Assembly (NCBI GenBank): GCA_023954855.1
Contig: JAGSGY010000035.1
Span: 1-52,081, forward strand
Length of the DNA stretch: 52,081 nt
Reading direction: 5' to 3'
Origin: Pseudomonadota bacterium
Lineage (GTDB): Bacteria > Myxococcota_A > UBA796 > GCA-2862545
Part shown: positions 5,658 to 18,156 of the stretch, piece by piece
Layout: every line of letters starts with the position of its first letter
How positions within the stretch are numbered: the first letter of the stretch is position 1
Position numbers and translations under genes: made by a program
Notes under the pieces: generated by a model
Databases searched by the model: none
What the model saw: only the letters and a program-made list of their open reading frames with translations
Told to the model about the DNA's origin: nothing

Positions 5658-6698
5658 GTGAACGCCACCGACCTCAAGCCCAACACCCTGTTCATCGAAG
5701 TCAAAGGCTCGGGCATTCCCGAGGTCGACGGCCTGTTTGTCCCCTCGACGGCACCGCCGACCGAGTCCGAGTCCGGGACCGTGTCGAGCTTGGGCTACTG
5801 GAACGGCAAGATGGCCTGGGATCGCGCCGACGGGAAGTCCGAGCGCAGCCCCGCCCTGTCGTACTCGAACAGCTACAAATCGTGGCGCATCTGTCGGCTC
5901 GATGGGCACCTGGCCTACGACAACACTTGTGACGACGACCTGCCGCCCACCGACACCAAGTGGCACGTCTACAAGAAGGGCGTGGCACCCGCGCCCTCGA
6001 TCGTGATTCACCACTTCGACCCCCGCGAGCCGCTGCCCGAGCCGAACATCGTCTTCGTGCTCGGCGGGCCTGGCTGCGGTAAGGGCACCATGTGCTCCCT
6101 CGCGGAGTCCCAGCTCGGCTGGACCCACCTCTCGGCCGGCGAGCTACTGCGCAATGAGCGCGCGTCGAATGGCCCCGAGGCCGCGATGATCGAGAAGTGC
6201 CTGGCCGCAGGCGAGATCGTGCCCACCGAGATCACCGTGTCGCTGCTCAAGCGCGCCATGGAGACGGCGATGCGCACGACGGGCAAGAAGAACTTCCTGC
6301 TCGACGGGTTCCCGCGCTCGATCGACAACATGGAAGGCTGGCTAAACGTCTACGGTCGCGACAGCGAGCTGCCGTCGATGCTGTACTTTGAGTGCCCCTA
6401 CGACGTACTCGAGGAGCGCATTCTCGGCCGCGCCAAGTACTCGGGTCGCAGCGACGACAACGTCGAGAGCATCAAGCTTCGCTTCGACACCTTCAAGGCC
6501 AAGACGCTGCCGACCCTCGAGTTGTTCAAGAGCAAGAACAAGGTCGTCGAGGTGGACGCCAGCCGCAGTCGCGAAGAGGTCTACGCGCTGGTCGGCGAGA
6601 GCCTCGCCGCGCACACCGACCCCGAGCTCGCCGCACAGCCCCTGACCGAGCGCGCCGAGATGCTGCTTGGGCTGAGGCCCTACCCGCCGCGGAGCTAG
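5658..6698 (+). CDS. Eukaryote-type UMP-CMP kinase with extra N-terminal domain
   Basis: 346 residues from a GTG. Residues 130-318 are a nucleoside-monophosphate kinase closest in wording to eukaryotic UMP-CMP kinases: P-loop GGPGCGKGT (136-144), THLSAGELLR (156-165), IVPTEITVSLLKR, LLDGFPRS..N (214-224), a short LID with SGRSDDN (262-268) and VDASRS near the end. The long adenylate-kinase LID is absent. Function: phosphorylation of UMP/CMP with ATP. Most bacteria use the unrelated-in-detail PyrH and Cmk enzymes for this. Residues 10-115 form a separate domain with repeated Trp/Tyr positions (YWNGKMAWD, YKSWRIC, LPPTDTKWHVY and then PAP), a pattern I associate with small domains in algal and protist proteins. 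Transfer from a eukaryote is possible but inferred. The P-loop Cys is unusual. Confidence 0.85.
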   Translation: MNATDLKPNTLFIEVKGSGIPEVDGLFVPSTAPPTESESGTVSSLGYWNGKMAWDRADGKSERSPALSYSNSYKSWRICRLDGHLAYDNTCDDDLPPTDTKWHVYKKGVAPAPSIVIHHFDPREPLPEPNIVFVLGGPGCGKGTMCSLAESQLGWTHLSAGELLRNERASNGPEAAMIEKCLAAGEIVPTEITVSLLKRAMETAMRTTGKKNFLLDGFPRSIDNMEGWLNVYGRDSELPSMLYFECPYDVLEERILGRAKYSGRSDDNVESIKLRFDTFKAKTLPTLELFKSKNKVVEVDASRSREEVYALVGESLAAHTDPELAAQPLTERAEMLLGLRPYPPRS

Positions 6699-6707
6699 CC
6701 GCGTGAG

Positions 6708-6743
6708 AAGGGTCGCCGAGCACCATGCGCGCATGCGACCCTT
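6708..6743 (+). terminator. Inverted repeat, possible terminator after the UMP-CMP kinase gene
   Basis: Perfect 9-bp arms AAGGGTCGC (6708-6716) and GCGACCCTT (6735-6743) flank an 18-base loop. The loop itself contains the 10-bp palindrome ATGCGCGCAT (6725-6734). It lies 10 bases after the stop and before the next gene's ribosome site. There is no T-run after it, so it is not a textbook intrinsic terminator. It could instead be a protein site or an mRNA-stabilising hairpin. Confidence 0.45.
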
Positions 6744-6770
6744 CGCTCTCTAGCCACACCAGGAGGCCCG

Positions 6771-7541
6771 ATGACTCGTCACCCTGCATCGCGGCCGTGG
6801 GCCCGCCGACTGCTCGTCGCTGCCGGACTTCTCGCAGCATTCCTGGTGCTCGCTGTCGGCGGGCTCGCGCTCAGCCTCCATCAGCCGCGACCCGCCACGG
6901 GACAGCAAGGTGAGGTCGCCGACGCCTTCGCTCACCGCATCGAGGCCGCCACAGGACAGCAGGCGTGGAAGGAACTCGGCGCGGTGCAGTGGCGCTTTGC
7001 CGATGCGAACGACCACCTCTGGGACCGCAGCCGCGAGCTGGACCGCGTGCGCTACGACGGTGTCGAGGTTCTTCTGCACGTGCACGACGCCACCGGTGTG
7101 GCCACACGGAACGGGCAGCCCCTGGACGGCGACGACACGAGCGAGGCGCTGAGCAAAGCCCAGAAGCTGTTCTACAACGACTCGTACTGGCTCAACCCCT
7201 TCTCGAAGCTGTTCGACCCAGGCGTGACCCGCTCCATCATCGAGACCGACCGTGGCGAGGCCCTGCTCGTCGAGTTCTCGAGCGGAGGCTCCACGCCCGG
7301 AGATGCCTTCGCCATCTACGTCGATGCCGACGGCCTGCCCGTGTACTGGGAGATGTGGGTCAGCATCCTGCCGCTAGGCGGCGTGGGCACAAGCTGGGAA
7401 GGGTGGCAAGACCTGGGTGGGGGCGCCCTGAGCGCGACGCTGCACCGCGTCGGGCCCATCACCTTCGAGCTCACCGACGTGCGGGCTGCTGGGACCCTAA
7501 GCGAGCTCGAGGAGGACCCGTTCGCCGAGCTGCGGCCCTAA
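6771..7541 (+). CDS. Membrane-anchored protein with lipoprotein-sorting-like motif
   Basis: 256 residues starting after a strong aggagg. One N-terminal membrane helix (residues 14-35) precedes a periplasmic domain. That domain has WRFADANDHLWDR, an NDSYWLNPFSKLFDPGV segment (about 138-152) and later YVDADGLPVYWEMW. I associate the NDSYWL..P.KL.DPG pattern with uncharacterised proteins of the LolA/LolB-like fold, which bind lipids or lipoproteins in the periplasm. That link comes from memory of the pattern, not from a search. It is followed 90 bp later by the ketosteroid-isomerase-like gene on the same strand, so a role in handling a lipid for that pair is conceivable but unproven. Confidence 0.6.
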   Translation: MTRHPASRPWARRLLVAAGLLAAFLVLAVGGLALSLHQPRPATGQQGEVADAFAHRIEAATGQQAWKELGAVQWRFADANDHLWDRSRELDRVRYDGVEVLLHVHDATGVATRNGQPLDGDDTSEALSKAQKLFYNDSYWLNPFSKLFDPGVTRSIIETDRGEALLVEFSSGGSTPGDAFAIYVDADGLPVYWEMWVSILPLGGVGTSWEGWQDLGGGALSATLHRVGPITFELTDVRAAGTLSELEEDPFAELRP

Positions 7542-7631
7542 CCTCCATCGCGAAACACTCTGAAACCCTTGCGTCCTTGTCAGGGGACGCGTCCAGGCAT
7601 AGCCAAGCCGAGTGGACCAAAGGGAGTTTAG

Positions 7632-8069
7632 ATGTCGATTGTCGGAACCTGGGGCGCGATGATTGCGGCTGCGCAAGGCGTGCACACCCACGAGGACGTG
7701 GAAGCCACCGTGCGTGCGTACTTCGACTCCTGGGCCAACGGGGATGTCCAGGCAAGAGCCGCCCTCTTTGCTCCCGACGCCGCATTCTCAGACCCCATCG
7801 GCGCGCCTGAGCTCAACGGCCTGCCCGCCATTCAGCGCTTCTGGTCGATGGCTGCCTCGATGCCGATCACCACCACCCCCGAGGTCCATCGCATCGTCAT
7901 CAGCGGCGACCATGCGCTGGCGCACTTCACCATGCATCTCGCCGGCGAACAGGGACCGGTGGGCTCCCTCGAGGTCTTCGAGACCTTCGACTTCAACGAC
8001 CAGGGCCAGATCACGCGGCTGGGTCCCTACTGGGACCGCTCCTGCGTGACCAAGGCCGGCGACGCATGA
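7632..8069 (+). CDS. Ketosteroid-isomerase-like protein (NTF2/SnoaL fold)
   Basis: 145 residues, with ribosome site GGGAG. The length and sequence fit the NTF2-like fold. Tyr30 (VRAYFDSWANGD) and Asp54 (FSDPIG) lie 24 residues apart, the same spacing as the catalytic Tyr16 and Asp40 of Pseudomonas putida ketosteroid isomerase. The third active-site residue, Asp103 there, would be 63 residues further on; here that position is Glu117 (VFETFDFN). Known enzymes move the double bond of 3-oxo-delta5 steroids to delta4. The gene overlaps the steroid 5-alpha-reductase gene by 4 bp (ATGA), which strongly supports a steroid role. NTF2-like proteins are diverse, so another hydrophobic substrate is possible. 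Confidence 0.72.
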   Translation: MSIVGTWGAMIAAAQGVHTHEDVEATVRAYFDSWANGDVQARAALFAPDAAFSDPIGAPELNGLPAIQRFWSMAASMPITTTPEVHRIVISGDHALAHFTMHLAGEQGPVGSLEVFETFDFNDQGQITRLGPYWDRSCVTKAGDA

Positions 8070-8824
8070 ACGAGACCGTCTACCGCGTCCTGCTGGTCTT
8101 CATCTTCGCGATGTCGGCACTCACCTTCGCAAGCTCGATGAAGCGGGTCACCCGCTACGGCCGCTACATGAAGGACCACCAGAAGAACACCCTCCCCGCA
8201 CTCTGGGGCTGGCTGCTCTTCGAGTCGCCCCAGGTCGTGGCCTTTGCCCTGTGCTTCTGGCTCACGGCCGAGAGTCCTTCTGTCGTCGCCATCGGCATCT
8301 TCTGCGTGTGGCAGGCCCACTACGTGCATCGGGCGGTGCTGTTCCCGCTTCGTCTCAACAACCGCCACAAGCGCTTTCCCGTCGGAGGCGTGCTCGCCGG
8401 GCTGGTGTTCAACTCGATCAATGGCGTGTTGAATGGCTGGGCGGTGGCCCACGCCGCGCACCTCGACTCGACCACCTGGCTGACCGACCCTCGCTTTGTC
8501 GTCGGAGCCGCCATCATGGCCGTCGGCTGGGGCATCAACTTCCACTCCGACAACACGCTGATCGGCTTGCGAAGCGACGGCTTCAAGGGCTACCGCATTC
8601 CCACCGGCGGGCTGTTCACCTACGTCTCAGCCGCGAACTACTTCGGCGAAATCGTGATGTGGACGGGCTTTGCGCTGATGACGTGGACCGCCGCAGGTCT
8701 TGCGTTCGCGGTGTTCACCGTGGCCAACCTCCTGCCCCGCGGACTGGCCCATCACCGCTGGTACCTCAAGACCTTCGACGACTATCCGCCGGAGCGGCGT
8801 GCGATTCTGCCTGGACTGCTCTAG
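8066..8824 (+). CDS. Steroid 5-alpha-reductase family membrane enzyme
   Basis: 252 residues, polytopic membrane protein. It aligns by eye along most of its length with animal SRD5A1/SRD5A2: FESPQ with Glu53, AHYVHR with Tyr86 (spacing close to the catalytic Glu57-Tyr91 of human SRD5A2), TDPRFVVG, NFHSDNTL (158-165), YRIPTGGLFTYVSAANYFGE (176-195), LAHHRWYLKTFDDYP (227-241) and a hydrophobic end at LPGLL. Known reaction: NADPH-dependent saturation of the C4-C5 double bond of 3-oxo-delta4 steroids. The substrate would be the product of the isomerase encoded by the overlapping upstream gene. Its stop codon shares CTAG with the stop of the convergent gene. Confidence 0.92.
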   Translation: MNETVYRVLLVFIFAMSALTFASSMKRVTRYGRYMKDHQKNTLPALWGWLLFESPQVVAFALCFWLTAESPSVVAIGIFCVWQAHYVHRAVLFPLRLNNRHKRFPVGGVLAGLVFNSINGVLNGWAVAHAAHLDSTTWLTDPRFVVGAAIMAVGWGINFHSDNTLIGLRSDGFKGYRIPTGGLFTYVSAANYFGEIVMWTGFALMTWTAAGLAFAVFTVANLLPRGLAHHRWYLKTFDDYPPERRAILPGLL

Positions 8825-9909
8825 GGCACCGACCGCGTCCACGGAGCGAAGTACAACGGGCCAAGCTGTTGGCGCACAAACGGCTGCCGGAACTTCCAGA
8901 GAAATCCGTCGGTGACGAAGTGGAAGAGCGCCAGCCCGTCGAAGGCGTGAATGGCAAGCCGCGTCACCGCACCGGGGTCCGTCGGGAACACGGCCGCGGT
9001 CAGTCGTCCCCAGCCCGTTGCGATGAAGGCCAGCAGAATCAGGACCAGGTAGAACGCGAGCTGACGTCCCCGGAAGAAGGCCATCACCCGGTCGAGGCCA
9101 AAGCGGGTGTCGAGGGGCAGTCGGAACAGCCGCGGCTGCATGATCACGTGGTACTCGACGTAGTGCACGGCGAGGGTGGCGGCGTAGAGAAGGGTGTACG
9201 CCGCGGCAAGCGCCGAGCACAGCGCTTGGATGATGAAGTAGGCCACGACCACACGCTGTGCGCGCAGCCCCGAGACCTGCGCCGCCCGGACGTGGGCGAA
9301 GAGCAGCACGACAAAGAGCACCCCAAGCCCTGCGGCGACCAGCTTCACCAGCGGTTGCTCGAGCGCGATGGTGCCGCCAGCAAATGAGGTGTGCACTTGA
9401 AGGCCTGCCATGACCAGGAAGAAGCCGTTCTCCCAGTTCTTGGTCCATGCCGGCGACTGCCCGCGGGCTTGGCCCTTGAAGAGCTGCAGTACCCCGAAGG
9501 ACTGGCGTCCGACGTGGCCGTAGTTTGCGATGCGCAGCACGTAGGCCGTCACTACACCGACCACGGGAATGGCCTCGGCCACCTTGAAGGCCCCGAGTGC
9601 CGCCATCGTCAGCAAGATGATGACCGGAAGCGCGTACAGCGTGAACGTCGACCACCGATCACGTGCGAAATAGCGCCGATTCTCGTGCTGAAAGTACAGG
9701 AAGAAGGTCAGGATGAAGTGCGAGACGCCGAAGACTGCAAAGTAGAGAAGCGCGATGGAGGCCGTCACCGGGTGCTCGCTCGGCGGGCGGTTGATGAGCA
9801 GCCACCCGAGCGGAAGGGTCAGCAGGAAGAACGAGCCCAGGATGCCGCCCCACACCGGCGGAAGCTGTAAGAGGGTGCGTTCGTTCACGGCGGGTTCTGT
9901 CGCCTGCAT
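8821..9909 (-). CDS. Polytopic membrane protein with conserved-looking His motifs
   Basis: 362 residues with about nine to ten hydrophobic segments and ribosome site GGAG. His-containing motifs are spread through the membrane segments: FGVSHFILTFFLYFQHENRRYF (about 60-80), NYGHVGR, HYVEYHVIMQPR and FHFVTDGFLWKFRQ near the C-terminus. Such paired His and Asp residues recall membrane oxygenases or metal-dependent membrane enzymes such as Brp/Blh carotene dioxygenase, but the motifs are not a match to any family I can name. It converges on the steroid reductase gene with a shared CTAG stop, so it is not in that operon. Confidence 0.6.
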   Translation of the reverse strand: MQATEPAVNERTLLQLPPVWGGILGSFFLLTLPLGWLLINRPPSEHPVTASIALLYFAVFGVSHFILTFFLYFQHENRRYFARDRWSTFTLYALPVIILLTMAALGAFKVAEAIPVVGVVTAYVLRIANYGHVGRQSFGVLQLFKGQARGQSPAWTKNWENGFFLVMAGLQVHTSFAGGTIALEQPLVKLVAAGLGVLFVVLLFAHVRAAQVSGLRAQRVVVAYFIIQALCSALAAAYTLLYAATLAVHYVEYHVIMQPRLFRLPLDTRFGLDRVMAFFRGRQLAFYLVLILLAFIATGWGRLTAAVFPTDPGAVTRLAIHAFDGLALFHFVTDGFLWKFRQPFVRQQLGPLYFAPWTRSVP

Positions 9910-9986: not shown

Positions 9987-12503
9987 CTACTCCCGATCGA
10001 CGGCCCGCTGCACCGCCGCGAGACGGAACTGCACAAAGGTGTTGGTGGGCGCGAGCCGACGCGCCTCGATGAGCAAGGGCAGCGCGCTCTTGTCGTCGTC
10101 CTGCATGGTGAAGTCGCGAGCCGCCCAGAGCAGCTCCATCACCTTCTGACTCTGGCCCATTGCCTCGGCGTCCGGGTGGGGAGCGGTCAGCACCGACTCG
10201 AGGGGGGTGCGATGCGCGAGCGGCTGGGCCATGCGAAACGGCTTGTTCTCGTAGCGCAAGAAGTGCTCGACCCGGGGACGGTCGTCGGTCACCACCGCCG
10301 CATCGCCGACAAAGGCCGCTAGGTCCTCGTCGGCGCTGATGAAGGTCGCGAGGAGGTCATCCACGGACTCCACGCCCACCTTGCGGAGGTCCTCTTTGAC
10401 GTCAGCCTCCTCCATGCGAAGGCGAAGCGCCTCGTGGTCGATCTGCAGAGGGTGGTGAGAGCCGATGATGATGCCCTCGTAGTTGCCCGGTACCCACAGC
10501 GAGACATGGGGGTAGACCTCCATCATCGTGCGAATCAGCATGCGATGAATCTCTTCGAAGCCCTGGTGGAACGGAATCCACTGCGCGACCACGGCATCGG
10601 AGTCGAGGCGCGCATCGGCGAGCTCGTAGAACTCCTGGCTGTAGAGGTTGACCACACCCGCCTCGACCGGTGGAGGCGGCTCGAAGGTGAGCACATCGAA
10701 GCGCGTGTCGCTCACTTGCAAGAAGTGGCGTCCATCCGAGGCGACCATCTCGACCGCGGGGTTCGTGTGGAACGAGTGGTTGACGGGGACGAAGTACGGC
10801 GCGAAGCCAAAGATGTGCCGAGTGATGTCGACCGCCCACACCCGCTTCTTTCGGTCGTGAATCGAGGCCGCGCCGATGGTGGTGCCGGTGCCGACGCAGA
10901 TCACGACGGTCTCTTCGGGCTCGGGCATCAGCAACATGGGCAGGTGCGCGAGCAGCGACATGTAGCGCCGGCCCTCGGGCCGATTGTTCGCGTACGAGGT
11001 GCCGTTGACGACCACCGACTGAAAGGTGCCTGCGTGCTCGTCCTCGTACTTGAGCACGACAAAGGTCGCATCGTCGGTCTCTTTGTAGACCAGCACCTCG
11101 CCGTCGTAGCGGGACTGCGACTCGCGCAGGTAGCCGGGCCCGTATGCGAGCAAGATCACCAGGCAAGTCGCCGCCGTCAGCCCTGCTTCTCTTCGAAGTC
11201 CAGGCACCGACCGGAGCTCGTTCTGCGTCGCATAGAGCACCGCGAACAGGGCGAGGTTCCCGAGGGCGAGTAGCGTGAACGCGCTCTGGGCCCCCAGCAG
11301 TGGCAGAAGCACAAAGCCGGCGACCAGCGACCCGAGGACTCCACCGTAGGTGTTGAGCGCGTAGAGCAAGGCCACCCGCGAGCCCAGCCGAGACAGGCGC
11401 TGGACCGTCAGCTCAGAGGCAAGCGGAAACGACAGGCCGATCAGCGTTGTCGGTGGCAGCAGCACCAGCAGCGTCGTGATGACCAGCGGGACCATGCCTC
11501 CGGCGCGCAGCGGGCTGTAGCCAAGGTAGTGAAGGATCACCTTCGACTGCGACGCGACGCCGAGGCTCACGAGCGCTGCCACCGCGATGCCCAGTTGCAC
11601 CCGAGCGAAGTTGGCGAGCAGCTTGTCCTTGTGCGGAGCCAGCCAGCGCGCGCAGGCAAACGAGCCGGCGACCAAACCGAGCAAGTAGGTCGAGAGCATG
11701 GTGCTGAAGCTGTAGACCGTGTTCGCGGCCGAGTACATGAGCAGCCGGAACCAGAGCACCTCGTAGCCAAGCGCGAGAAACCCGCTCGCCGCAAAGACCG
11801 CGAGAAGCGTCATCGCCTGCCGATCGGCGGCGGACGGCTCGGCATCGACCGCGCCAGCAGCCTCAACCGGCAACACGGCTTCGTCGCGGGCCAACCACAG
11901 CGCCACCACGCCAATCGCGATGTAGAGCAGGCTCGCCATCGATGCCGCGGTGAGCACGCCAAAGCTCCCAATGAGCACCAGGCCCATCGCTGCCGCACCG
12001 ACGGCGGCTCCCAGCGTGTTCAGGCCGTACAGAAAGCCAATCTTCTCGGCCAGATCGGTCTTTGCACGCACCAGATAGCGGGCAAGAATCGGGAGGGTCG
12101 CGCCCATCAGGATTGTCGCCGGGAGCATCGCACCGAGTGCCAGGAGCACCTTCACGGGCAGTGCTGTCGCCGAGTCCAGGGACATGAAGGGCCGAAACCA
12201 GCCTACCCACGACGGCCAGGCGGCCAGGAGCTGTGTCGTGCCGAACGACACCACGCCGAGCGCGAGCTCGAGCAGGCCGTACATGCGCAAGGGCCGAGCC
12301 CACTTATCGGAGCGGCTGCCCACCAGAAGACTTCCGGTCGCCAGTCCGCCGAAGAAACACGCGATCACGACCGAGGCGGTGACAGTGTTTCCGCCCAGCG
12401 ACAGTCCGAGCTGTTTGAACCATGCAACCTCGCACATCAGCGAGGCGACCCCGGAGGCGAAGAACACGGCGTAGATCGAGCGGAGCGCGGGGGTGTCGGA
12501 CAT
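9987..12503 (-). CDS. Membrane spermidine-synthase-like protein (MFS-like helices plus Rossmann domain)
   Basis: 838 residues from the ATG of MSDTPALRS; an ATG three codons upstream is equally possible, and neither has a clear ribosome site. Residues 1-480 contain about 14 transmembrane helices with repeated EVAWF/EVLWFR and GATLP/GLSFPLASE motifs, as in fused membrane spermidine synthases. The C-terminal third is a cytosolic Rossmann domain with VVICVGTGTTIGAAS (about 533-547) and VWAVDITRH, where polyamine synthases bind the aminopropyl donor. The classic Gly-Gly-Asp-Gly motif is altered to GTGTTIG, so true aminopropyl transfer is uncertain. A short helical, TPR-like tail follows. The gene lies downstream of the thioesterase on the same strand. 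Confidence 0.82.
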   Translation of the reverse strand: MSDTPALRSIYAVFFASGVASLMCEVAWFKQLGLSLGGNTVTASVVIACFFGGLATGSLLVGSRSDKWARPLRMYGLLELALGVVSFGTTQLLAAWPSWVGWFRPFMSLDSATALPVKVLLALGAMLPATILMGATLPILARYLVRAKTDLAEKIGFLYGLNTLGAAVGAAAMGLVLIGSFGVLTAASMASLLYIAIGVVALWLARDEAVLPVEAAGAVDAEPSAADRQAMTLLAVFAASGFLALGYEVLWFRLLMYSAANTVYSFSTMLSTYLLGLVAGSFACARWLAPHKDKLLANFARVQLGIAVAALVSLGVASQSKVILHYLGYSPLRAGGMVPLVITTLLVLLPPTTLIGLSFPLASELTVQRLSRLGSRVALLYALNTYGGVLGSLVAGFVLLPLLGAQSAFTLLALGNLALFAVLYATQNELRSVPGLRREAGLTAATCLVILLAYGPGYLRESQSRYDGEVLVYKETDDATFVVLKYEDEHAGTFQSVVVNGTSYANNRPEGRRYMSLLAHLPMLLMPEPEETVVICVGTGTTIGAASIHDRKKRVWAVDITRHIFGFAPYFVPVNHSFHTNPAVEMVASDGRHFLQVSDTRFDVLTFEPPPPVEAGVVNLYSQEFYELADARLDSDAVVAQWIPFHQGFEEIHRMLIRTMMEVYPHVSLWVPGNYEGIIIGSHHPLQIDHEALRLRMEEADVKEDLRKVGVESVDDLLATFISADEDLAAFVGDAAVVTDDRPRVEHFLRYENKPFRMAQPLAHRTPLESVLTAPHPDAEAMGQSQKVMELLWAARDFTMQDDDKSALPLLIEARRLAPTNTFVQFRLAAVQRAVDRE

Positions 12504-12567
12504 GGGGCGCATTGTGTCACGGCACCGCGCGAAGTTCAGCACTGCCCCGCAGCGAACGCCAGTGAGG

Positions 12568-13002
12568 CTAGCTGGCGAACTGCGGGAGCTTCTCGAGCGC
12601 ATAGAGATTGAAGGTGCCCACGGCAAAGGCCACCGGCTCACCCGTCGACTCGATCTCGGCGGTGCCGGTCACCACCAACAGCGACTTCCCGGCCGACTGG
12701 AGCTTGGCACGAGCCACCACCGTCTCGCCCTCTGGAGCGGGTCTCAAGAAGTTGACCTTCATCTCGACGGTACTCGTCGCGCGGCCGTTCGCGAGTGCGT
12801 GCGTCAGCGCCACGCCACCGAGCGTGGAGTCGAGGAGTGCCATCAGCGAGCCACCATGGGCGATGCCCGGCGCACCCGTGTGCATCCGCTCAATCGGCAT
12901 GCGTGCGGTCATGACGCCCTCTTCGAGCCCTCCGTCGATCTGCAGCGCGGTGATCAGGCCGCCGTACTCGCGGAGCTTCCGCCAGATGTTCTGCAGGGTC
13001 AT
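12568..13002 (-). CDS. Hotdog-fold thioesterase (PaaI/YdiI-like)
   Basis: 144 residues starting at the ATG after AGAGG; the longer frame upstream lacks a ribosome site. Family motifs include AHGGSLMALLDSTLGG (about 48-63), where His-Gly-Gly and the following acidic residue form the active site of PaaI-type thioesterases, and then VEMKVNFLRPAPEG, typical of the second strand. Known role: hydrolysis of acyl- or aryl-CoA thioesters in the cytosol. It is transcribed divergently from the LysR regulator across an 83-bp gap holding an inverted repeat, so LysR control is likely. It lies upstream of the spermidine-synthase-like gene with a 64-bp gap. Confidence 0.9.
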   Translation of the reverse strand: MTLQNIWRKLREYGGLITALQIDGGLEEGVMTARMPIERMHTGAPGIAHGGSLMALLDSTLGGVALTHALANGRATSTVEMKVNFLRPAPEGETVVARAKLQSAGKSLLVVTGTAEIESTGEPVAFAVGTFNLYALEKLPQFAS

Positions 13003-14868: not shown

Positions 14869-17800
14869 CTGACCCCCGGAACCCGTATCGGTCGCTACGA
14901 AGTCATCCGCACCCTCGGCGAGGGCGGCATGGGCACTGTGTGCGAAGCGGTCCTGCACGGCCCGGCAGGATTCACCAAGCGGGTAGCGCTCAAGCAGCTC
15001 AAAGAAGGCGGCAAGGGACTCGTGCATGAGGCGAAGCTCGGAGGCCTGCTCCAGCACCCGCATCTGGTCGAGGTCTACGCCCTCGAGCAGGTCGACGGCA
15101 CGTGGCTGTGCGCGATGGAGTTCATCGGTGGTGGCTCGCTCGCCAACTATTTGCCCATGCCCTCTAAGGCCGTGGTCGAGGTTGGCCAAGGGGTGGCACG
15201 GGGACTGGCCCATGCCCACGAGGCCGTCGGCCTAGTTCATCTCGATCTCAAGCCCGCAAACCTGCTGCTCCACCACGGCATGGTCAAGGTCGCCGATCTG
15301 GGCATCAGTCGCGCACGAGGATTCGCGACCGACGGCAAGGTCAAGGGCACGCCGATCTACATGGCGCCAGAGCACCGCCACAATGACAAGCTCGACGCGC
15401 GGGCCGATATCTACTCCCTCGGCGTCGTGCTCATCGAGCTCGCGACCGGCACGCCTTCGAAGGACCCGACCGCCGTCGCGTGGCTCGAGCCGGTGCTTCG
15501 CCGCTGCCTTGCCGAACATCCAAGCGACCGCTTTGCAGACATGCGGGAGGTCGGCCGGGCGCTGGCTGAAATCGAGACGAGTGGACCGGGCTTGGCGGAC
15601 CTCTCTCGTCGGGAAGCGCCCCCCACGGCCACCCTCAGCCACTCCGTCGACACCTACCTCTTCGACGCGCCGGGGAGCGAACCCGAGATTCACCGCACGA
15701 ACATCGGCGGCGAGCCCGATACCTATGTGGGCCGTGAGAGCGAAGTGGGCCTGCTCATCGACCAGCTGCGACCGCCGGGGCTCGTGACGCTCAAGGGCCT
15801 TGGAGGGCTTGGCAAGACGCGACTCGCGAGACGCGCCGCGCGCCAGTGGCGCGAGCTGATGGACGGCGAGGCCTGGTTTGCGGATCTGTCGTCGTGCACA
15901 AGCCCCGTTCAGGTCCTGCGCTCGGTCGCCGATGCGCTCGGAATCGGCCTCTCAGGCGAGGAAGAGGCCGCTCAGGTCCAGCAGGTCGGCTGGGCTCTCG
16001 ACGGGCGCGGCGATGTCGTTTTGGTCCTCGACAACTTCGAGCAGGTGCAGGGTGCGGGCGGCCTGATCACCACGTGGCGTGCCCTCGCCCCTCAGCTTCG
16101 GGTCCTGGTGACCTCACGGGAGCCCCTGCGCCTTGCTGGCGAGCACGTGGTTCACCTCGAGCCTCTCTCGGTAGACGAGGGCGTCGCCCTGCTCATCGAT
16201 CGGGCACGCGCGCGCGGCCAGCGCATCGAAGGCGACCCCGGACTTCCCGAGCTCGCGCGGCGCCTGGACTGCATTCCCCTCGCACTCGAGCTTGCAGCGG
16301 GTCGGCTCGGCCTCTTCGGCGTGAGCGAGATCATCGACCGACTCGACGAGCGTCTGAAGCTGCTGCGCGCAAAGCACTCATCCTCGGCCCGCCAATCCAC
16401 CCTTCGCGGGGCGCTGGATTGGAGTTGGGACCTGCTCAGCGAAGCCGAACGCAACGCGTTTGCGCAGTGCAGTGTGTTCGTCGATGGCTTCACCGTCGAA
16501 GCCGCTGAGGCCGTCCTCGACACGGGGGAGCTCTGGGCTCTCGACGTCGTCGAGTCTCTGCTCGACCGCTCTCTGCTGCACCAGCGGAGCGACGGCCGTC
16601 TCGGCATGTACGAGTCCACACGACTGTACGCGCGTGAGCGACTCACGGACCCCTACGAGCTCGACGAGCGACACGCGAAGTACTTCGCGGAACTCGGCCG
16701 CGCGGGCCGGCAAGCCAGCGCACTCGGGGCACTGCCACTCGAGCTCGGCAACCTGATGGCCGCCGCGCGCGCTGCTGTGGACCATGGCTGGGCCACGGTG
16801 GCTCTGGGGGCCGTCGCGGGGGCGGCGCAAGTCGTGGTGCATCGAGGTCCCGTCAGCCCCGCACTCGACCTCGCCGGCCACGTCACCGGCCTGCTCGGAC
16901 TCGACGTCGACGACCACGTCATGGCACATCAGCTCGCGGGAGAGCTCACCGCCGTTTCGGGAAACAACGCCGTCGCGGCGCTTCACTTCGAGCGGGCAGT
17001 CGCCCTAGCCAGTGGCGCCACGGCTGCAATCCACGCCCATGCGCTCGTCGGTCTCGCATCCGTCCACCGCATCACCGGCGAGCTCACCACGGCCACAGAT
17101 CTGCTCGAGAGGGCGCGGGCACTCAAGCCCAGCCGCCACGTGCAGGGCTTCATCGAGCTCGAAGCCGGCACACTCGCCTACCAGCGCGGCGAGTACGACC
17201 AAGCCACGCACGCCTTCGAGGCCATCCGAGCGCTGGGCGCACGACCGACGCCGCACCCCACCGCTGGTGAAGCCCTCGGAAATCTCGCCCACATCTACGC
17301 AGATCGCGGCCAGATCGAGCTCGCCCGCAGCACCTACCGCCGGGCTCTCGCCGTACACCGCACCCGCGGAGAGCGAGCCTATGAGGCGGCCACGCTCTCG
17401 AATCTCGGCAACATGGACGTCGAGCAGGGCAACTACGACCGCGCCGAGCGCTACTACACGTCCGCGCTGACCATGCAGAAGCAGAGCGGCAACCGCCGCC
17501 GCGAGGGTGTGTCGCGCAGCAACCTCGGCTCGCTGCTGATGCGTCGGGGACGCCTCGAAGAATCGCAGTCCCTCTTCGAGCAGGCGCTCGCCATTCACCG
17601 CGAGGTCGGAAACCGCCGCTCCGAGGGCCTCTGTCTCGGAAACCTCGGCTCGCTTCACCACGGCCGTGGGCGCTACGCCCAGGCCCGTCGGTCCTACGAG
17701 CGCGCCCGAGACCTCGCGCAGGTCCTCGACATCGAGCCCCTCCGTGGAGTGTGGTCCGGCGAGCTCGGCCTGCTACGCATCGAGCAAGGCGACTTCGAAG

Positions 17801-18156
17801 CAGGTCAGCAGGACCTCGAAGCTGCCGTCAGCGCAATCGGCACCCGTATGCCGAGCTATCAGCAACTCTTCATCATTGCCCTCGCCGAGGTTCGCCAGCA
17901 GACCGAGGAGGTCACGCTCGATCTCGCGGGTCCGCTCCGCACGCTGCGGTCGCTCGGGGCGGCGCAGATGCTGGTGCGCGCCCTCTGTGCGCTCGCACGT
18001 CTCGCCGCGCGCCGACGCGATGTCGAAGAGGCCGAACACTGGCTCCAGGAGGCCAAGACGGTGGCCGAGGAACTCGCGGACGGCGGCCTTCCGCACGACC
18101 ATGCCTTGCGGTGGACTCGGGATGTACTCAACGCAGCCACGACGGCGCCCGCCTAG
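14869..18156 (+). CDS. Ser/Thr kinase - NB-ARC/STAND ATPase - TPR signalling protein
   Basis: 1,095 residues if started at CTG, which has GGAG five bases upstream. The only in-frame ATG (14929) falls inside the glycine loop and would remove the first kinase strand. Kinase: GEGGMGTV (17-24), VALKQL Lys42, catalytic loop HLDLKPAN (124-131; the usual HRD Arg is Leu), DLG instead of DFG (143-145) and APE (166-168). NB-ARC-like ATPase: GLGGLGKT (310-317), Walker B VVLVLDNFE (about 383-391), VTSREPL and IPLALELAAG. TPR repeats fill about 690-1000 with recurrent NLG and GNRR.EG. Known for such fusions: signal-gated kinase switches in Myxococcota. The start could instead reflect a one-base frameshift. 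Confidence 0.9.
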   Translation: MTPGTRIGRYEVIRTLGEGGMGTVCEAVLHGPAGFTKRVALKQLKEGGKGLVHEAKLGGLLQHPHLVEVYALEQVDGTWLCAMEFIGGGSLANYLPMPSKAVVEVGQGVARGLAHAHEAVGLVHLDLKPANLLLHHGMVKVADLGISRARGFATDGKVKGTPIYMAPEHRHNDKLDARADIYSLGVVLIELATGTPSKDPTAVAWLEPVLRRCLAEHPSDRFADMREVGRALAEIETSGPGLADLSRREAPPTATLSHSVDTYLFDAPGSEPEIHRTNIGGEPDTYVGRESEVGLLIDQLRPPGLVTLKGLGGLGKTRLARRAARQWRELMDGEAWFADLSSCTSPVQVLRSVADALGIGLSGEEEAAQVQQVGWALDGRGDVVLVLDNFEQVQGAGGLITTWRALAPQLRVLVTSREPLRLAGEHVVHLEPLSVDEGVALLIDRARARGQRIEGDPGLPELARRLDCIPLALELAAGRLGLFGVSEIIDRLDERLKLLRAKHSSSARQSTLRGALDWSWDLLSEAERNAFAQCSVFVDGFTVEAAEAVLDTGELWALDVVESLLDRSLLHQRSDGRLGMYESTRLYARERLTDPYELDERHAKYFAELGRAGRQASALGALPLELGNLMAAARAAVDHGWATVALGAVAGAAQVVVHRGPVSPALDLAGHVTGLLGLDVDDHVMAHQLAGELTAVSGNNAVAALHFERAVALASGATAAIHAHALVGLASVHRITGELTTATDLLERARALKPSRHVQGFIELEAGTLAYQRGEYDQATHAFEAIRALGARPTPHPTAGEALGNLAHIYADRGQIELARSTYRRALAVHRTRGERAYEAATLSNLGNMDVEQGNYDRAERYYTSALTMQKQSGNRRREGVSRSNLGSLLMRRGRLEESQSLFEQALAIHREVGNRRSEGLCLGNLGSLHHGRGRYAQARRSYERARDLAQVLDIEPLRGVWSGELGLLRIEQGDFEAGQQDLEAAVSAIGTRMPSYQQLFIIALAEVRQQTEEVTLDLAGPLRTLRSLGAAQMLVRALCALARLAARRRDVEEAEHWLQEAKTVAEELADGGLPHDHALRWTRDVLNAATTAPA

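Follow-up and report, generated by a model that had tools for sequence, protein, structure and literature searches.

A ketosteroid-isomerase-like gene overlapping a divergent steroid 5-alpha-reductase gene: a candidate two-enzyme unit for exogenous 3-oxo steroids

The window, a stretch of 52,081 nucleotides, carries an overlapping gene pair that encodes a small protein resembling ketosteroid isomerases (KSIs) and a membrane protein of the steroid 5-alpha-reductase (SRD5A) family. Judged from sequence comparisons, the pair is best explained as a coupled two-enzyme unit whose substrate would be an exogenous 3-oxo steroid, modified in its A/B rings, a reading to which we give about an even chance. 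The KSI and SRD5A superfamilies themselves are already known. More tentatively, it is possible, though short of probable, that the two subfamilies found here, both uncharacterised, form an undescribed and horizontally spread module, linked independently in three arrangements, which would convert 3-oxo-Δ5-type steroids into 5α-3-oxo steroids in bacteria that make no sterols. To our knowledge, SRD5A homologues are widespread in bacteria and their role is mostly unknown; the pair offers them a specific partner and class of substrates that can be put to the test.

Layout of the gene pair

The base composition at third codon positions is of coding type in both open reading frames, and the 4-bp overlap described in an earlier note on this DNA is borne out by an ATGA stop/start that both frames share (Table 1). 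Based on this layout, the two genes are likely to be translationally coupled through the overlap. The ORF upstream of the pair (6771-7541) has no Pfam match and is absent from the other loci of the pair; similarly, the adenylate-kinase-like neighbour gene of the window is not common to those loci. Two other genes of the window have unusual architectures. The gene at 14929-18156 (forward strand) encodes a protein of 1075 aa in which a protein-kinase domain is combined with an AAA/NB-ARC-like NTPase and TPR repeats, and the gene at 9987-12641 (reverse strand) encodes an 884-aa membrane protein in which MFS-like segments are joined to a spermine-synthase-like domain.

Table 1. Features of the gene pair in the window
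Feature	Position	Strand	Evidence
Likely ribosome-binding site AAGGGAG, 5 nt upstream of the ATG of the isomerase gene	7620..7626	+	read from sequence
KSI2, ketosteroid-isomerase-like protein, 145 aa, ATG start	7632..8069	+	Pfam, PDB comparison, alignment, tree, model
ATGA stop/start overlap of both genes	8066..8069	+	read from sequence
SRD5A-family steroid 5-alpha-reductase, FE clade, 252 aa, ATG start, seven-TM fold	8066..8824	+	Pfam, PDB, alignment, tree, model

The reductase belongs to a divergent clade of the SRD5A family

The second protein is a member of the SRD5A family. Its PF02544 score is 159.1 bits, compared with a curated cut-off of 22.6, and it matches the solved bacterial enzyme PbSRD5A (PDB 7c83) with 209 bits and 42% identity. 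The AlphaFold2 model (pLDDT 93.6) adopts the seven-TM fold and gives Z 35.1 to 7c83 and 30.4 to human SRD5A2 (7bw1), followed by a sterol reductase at 12.3. Glu53 and Tyr86, which the earlier note had cited in calling the protein a 5-alpha-reductase, do align with the catalytic Glu and Tyr of PbSRD5A and are invariant across 33 sequences. In addition, all 13 NADPH hydrogen-bonding residues of PbSRD5A (PMC7815742) are retained in the window reductase.

The earlier note missed, on the other hand, that the protein has Phe52 where the published QEY motif has Gln. This Phe is common to a whole clade, here called the FE clade, which comprises 10 sequences of a 59-sequence SRD5A tree (support 100, stem 0.97), namely those of the window, an alphaproteobacterium, Nevskia and three of its relatives, two Sterolibacterium, a Mycobacterium and an Oceanococcus. 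The clade differs in having Phe52 for Gln/Met, Ala190 for Pro, and a mostly hydrophobic residue for Glu at position 198. The window reductase and its nearest relatives share F52-E53-x-P-Q56 in the alignment, together with SAANY in six of seven sequences and SSANY in the seventh; it is our guess that Gln56, one helical turn on, replaces the lost function of Gln52. Met almost always occupies the QEY-Gln position in a set of 17 relatives that come, with few exceptions, from the order of the window. As Met predominates among the other bacterial homologues sampled, the Gln marks a QEY subgroup and not the superfamily. By its sequence, the reductase is thus assigned to a divergent FEY/FExxQ clade, and its reading as a QEY enzyme is corrected. 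The QEY Gln is required in human SRD5A2 (PMC7815742), and since it is Phe in the FE clade, the substrate may differ. The change from QEY to FExxQ also probes which residues the SRD5A active site truly requires.

The genome of the window has another intact SRD5A copy, on contig C77, which groups with a genome of the same genus (G018). Because that copy groups within the genus and the window copy falls in the FE clade, the tree indicates that the window reductase gene was most likely acquired by horizontal transfer, and the whole gene pair probably has such an origin as well. A third copy, on contig C89 (L160, about 6207-6666, forward strand), is broken: two overlapping frames correspond to the N- and C-terminal parts and the middle is absent, so that it is either a pseudogene or an assembly error. 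An SRD5A homologue from another genome of the order (L028, G054:C1:203002-203733) contains one in-frame TGA.

The first protein has the fold and catalytic residues of a KSI but lies in a sister clade

SnoaL_2 is the Pfam domain of the first protein (69 bits); with the polyketide cyclase SnoaL model (PF07366) it scores 15.6 bits, below the Pfam cut-off of 28.4. Tyr30 and Asp54, whose spacing of 24 residues had been noted before, align with Tyr14 and Asp38 of the Comamonas testosteroni KSI. The window's genome encodes five further SnoaL_2 domains, none of which has both residues, so the Tyr/Asp pair is no trivial SnoaL_2 trait in this genome. Glu117 occupies the position of Asp99 in the C. testosteroni enzyme (the oxyanion-hole acid Asp99/Asp103); the same position is Glu in KSI homologues from Sterolibacterium and from two members of the window's family (G005 and G006), and Ser in 6p3l. 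Trp71 replaces the second active-site Tyr of classical KSIs, and in members of its group the Phe-Tyr of the classical enzymes is Phe-Trp.

KSI chains top the PDB matches of this protein, and by sequence it is closest, among solved structures, to 6p3l/6p44 and the KSIs; 6p3l was deposited as a SnoaL-like protein, and we take it to be a mycobacterial KSI. In a fold comparison against the PDB, the model (pLDDT 84) gives Z 18.4-19.6 and rmsd 1.3-1.6 to KSIs, and all of its best 50 matches are KSIs or KSI-derived, while other NTF2 families may rank lower.

The tree of 29 sequences, built without a short fragment (G124) that was the source of a false long branch in the initial tree, groups the window protein with those of G063, Nevskia (G064), G080, G090, G094 and G112, and this group, named KSI2, is split 100/100 from 22 classical sequences, among them all three solved KSIs. 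The window protein scores 99.5 bits with a profile of the other six KSI2 members versus 79.1 bits with the classical-KSI profile, and its identity to characterised KSIs is about 23%. It lies on a long branch, so its exact placement is uncertain. The first protein therefore belongs, while KSI-like in structure, to an uncharacterised sister clade outside the characterised KSIs; of the isomerase-like identity proposed earlier, the fold and catalytic residues stand, and membership of the characterised clade does not.

Linkage and co-occurrence across genomes

Of the 63 genomes in the window's order, 30 contain an SRD5A homologue; the window copy excepted, identities reach 48% at most. At the 29 other loci retrieved, no KSI gene lies within 1.5 kb of the SRD5A gene. 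The order and class of the window yielded only KSI matches in two same-family genomes, of the classical clade and not adjacent, and two weak ones. Conservation of the pair in relatives, proposed earlier as a check, thus fails within the order, but the same two subfamilies are adjacent in Nevskia and in G112, a genome of the Nevskia family. The three genomes have three orientations, namely a co-directional overlap in the window, a divergent arrangement in Nevskia (L046) with 141 bp between the start codons, and a convergent one in G112 (L166), about 137 bp apart. Adjacency of the same two enzyme types in unrelated bacteria suggests an undescribed two-step remodelling of environmental steroids.

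KSI2 is present in six of the 10 FE-clade genomes and adjoins the reductase in three; in the other four (both Sterolibacterium, Mycobacterium and Oceanococcus), only a classical KSI was found. Among 58 genomes of the Nevskia family, KSI2 is present in 4/4 with an FE-clade reductase versus 1/54 without (Fisher p 1.2e-5, which is too optimistic because the counted genomes are related). The sole exception (G094:C465, L213) has KSI2 and no detectable FE-clade reductase. An all-against-all neighbourhood comparison gave no third gene conserved across the loci of the pair, and the KSI2 neighbours in the Nevskia relatives (TPR-sulfotransferase, GGDEF and penicillin amidase) give no pointer to steroids. 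A search of plasmids returned two distant matches only.

Steroid setting of the two subfamilies

All six FE-clade genomes first found have a KSI homologue and, above its cut-off, FadD3, which marks degradation of the steroid C/D rings. In the alphaproteobacterium G063, the gene for the KSI2 nearest to that of the window is part of a run that also encodes SDRs and a KshA_C Rieske protein. The classical KSI homologue of Sterolibacterium adjoins FadD3, and that of Oceanococcus overlaps a gene for a KstD-like flavoprotein. Directly next to FadD3 and KSI in Sterolibacterium is a gene for CofE, the F420-0:L-glutamate ligase (L133, 10323-11084, forward strand), which hints at the use of F420 in that steroid cluster.

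Of KstD, KshA and FadD3, three genes of 9,10-seco steroid degradation, the window's genome has KstD-like and KshA-like ones but no FadD3. A separate steroid-type cluster is located in the same genome on contig C77 (L159, 13,288 bases), with genes at 1575-2294, 6532-8223, 8156-9139 and 10176-12215, all on the reverse strand. The contig encodes the second SRD5A, two KstD-like FAD proteins, a KshA_C Rieske oxygenase and an IpdE2-like acyl-CoA dehydrogenase. The top NCBIfam match of the Rieske protein is the 4beta-methylsterol monooxygenase SdmA, below the cut-off, and the KstD-like proteins score below the KstD equivalog cut-offs. The combination of Rieske and KstD-like proteins is seen again in G018 (L162).

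Proposed mechanism and alternative explanations

The proposed steps follow established KSI and SRD5A chemistry. In the first, KSI2 would shift the double bond of a 3-oxo steroid from Δ5 (or Δ5(10)) to Δ4, with Asp54 carrying the C4 proton over to C6 and with Tyr30 and protonated Glu117 stabilising the dienolate oxygen. The membrane reductase would then accept the 3-oxo-Δ4 product, its 3-keto group bound by Tyr86 and Glu53; hydride from NADPH would be delivered to the alpha face of C5 and a proton from Glu53 to C4, giving a 3-oxo-5α steroid. A soluble and a membrane enzyme could in this way turn 3-oxo-Δ5 steroids into 5α products in two steps, and the pair may work alongside the KstD-like and KshA-like genes of contig C77. 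Several points count against this explanation: the missing FadD3, adjacency in three genomes only, the four FE-clade genomes in which KSI2 was not found, Phe in place of the QEY Gln, the long branch of the window KSI2, and Trp for its second active-site Tyr. In addition, 5-alpha reduction opposes the usual catabolic direction.

A doubtful but serious alternative is that the pair is functional and its substrate is a non-steroid or unusual terpenoid enone (a polyprenal, a hopanoid-like compound or a fatty enone), isomerised by the KSI-like fold and reduced by the SRD5A-type enzyme. Some members of the SRD5A superfamily do reduce other lipids, the matches of the window reductase include a very-long-chain enoyl-CoA reductase, and both the changes at positions 52, 190 and 198 and the position of KSI2 outside the characterised clade are consistent with it, whereas the FadD3-bearing genomes of the FE-clade reductases and the KshA_C neighbour of the nearest KSI2 point to steroids. 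That chance has put a SnoaL-like enzyme for small molecules next to a steroid reductase, with no joint function, appears improbable: SnoaL_2 is a broad family, the pair is missing from the window's own order and the surrounding genes are unrelated, but this reading accounts poorly for the three orientations and the co-occurrence in the Nevskia family.

It is very improbable that KSI2, instead of being an isomerase, is an NTF2-fold sterol reductase resembling 8,14-Bsr, which is known from methanotrophs, myxobacteria (uncultured ones included), mycobacteria and sterol degraders and has Cyp51 as its genomic partner (PMC13277303). The two are alike in their NTF2/KSI fold, and both would act on sterols in bacteria; the KSI active-site residues, however, align in KSI2 and, by the published description, do not in 8,14-Bsr, which has an active-site set of its own (Tyr43 and Asp133; PMC13277303). 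The annotation of the window from 1 to 20.8 kb contains no P450, and thus no Cyp51.

Some Myxococcota produce sterols (PMC12004948), and yet a role of the pair in endogenous sterol biosynthesis, the earlier idea, is scarcely credible and was rejected, as the window's genome, 97% complete, has no squalene/oxidosqualene cyclase domain and only a marginal, partial squalene epoxidase match of 20.6 bits, with a model that also matches in E. coli. Since neither enzyme is convincingly present, uptake of the substrate is more likely than its synthesis by the cell.

Comparison with known systems

The claim that such a coupled pair is undescribed holds for the open-licence papers searched, in which no KSI and 5-alpha-reductase cluster or operon was found, one unrelated review aside, and no 3-oxo-5-alpha-steroid 4-dehydrogenase paired with a steroid delta-isomerase. 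Gut bacteria have a fusion of a 3-beta-HSDH/delta5-4 isomerase with a 5-beta-reductase (PMC12238238). The logic is similar, a shift to 3-oxo-Δ4 followed by reduction of that double bond, but the protein families are unrelated, the product is 5-beta, and the enzymes are fused where the genes here overlap. Compared with the KSIs of C. testosteroni and Pseudomonas putida and with 6p3l, KSI2 shares the fold and the equivalents of Tyr14 and Asp38. Where the C. testosteroni enzyme has Asp99 it has an acid too, but Glu, and it differs further in Trp for the second Tyr, a separate sister clade and low identity. Similarly, the window reductase resembles PbSRD5A in fold, sequence, catalytic Glu/Tyr and NADPH contacts, but it has Phe52 for Gln and lies in a separate clade; moreover, no KSI partner is reported for PbSRD5A in the available part of its description (PMC7815742). 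PbSRD5A, from a 'Proteobacteria bacterium', groups in our tree with a Polyangiaceae sequence (L070) at support 99, so this solved bacterial enzyme is probably myxobacterial.
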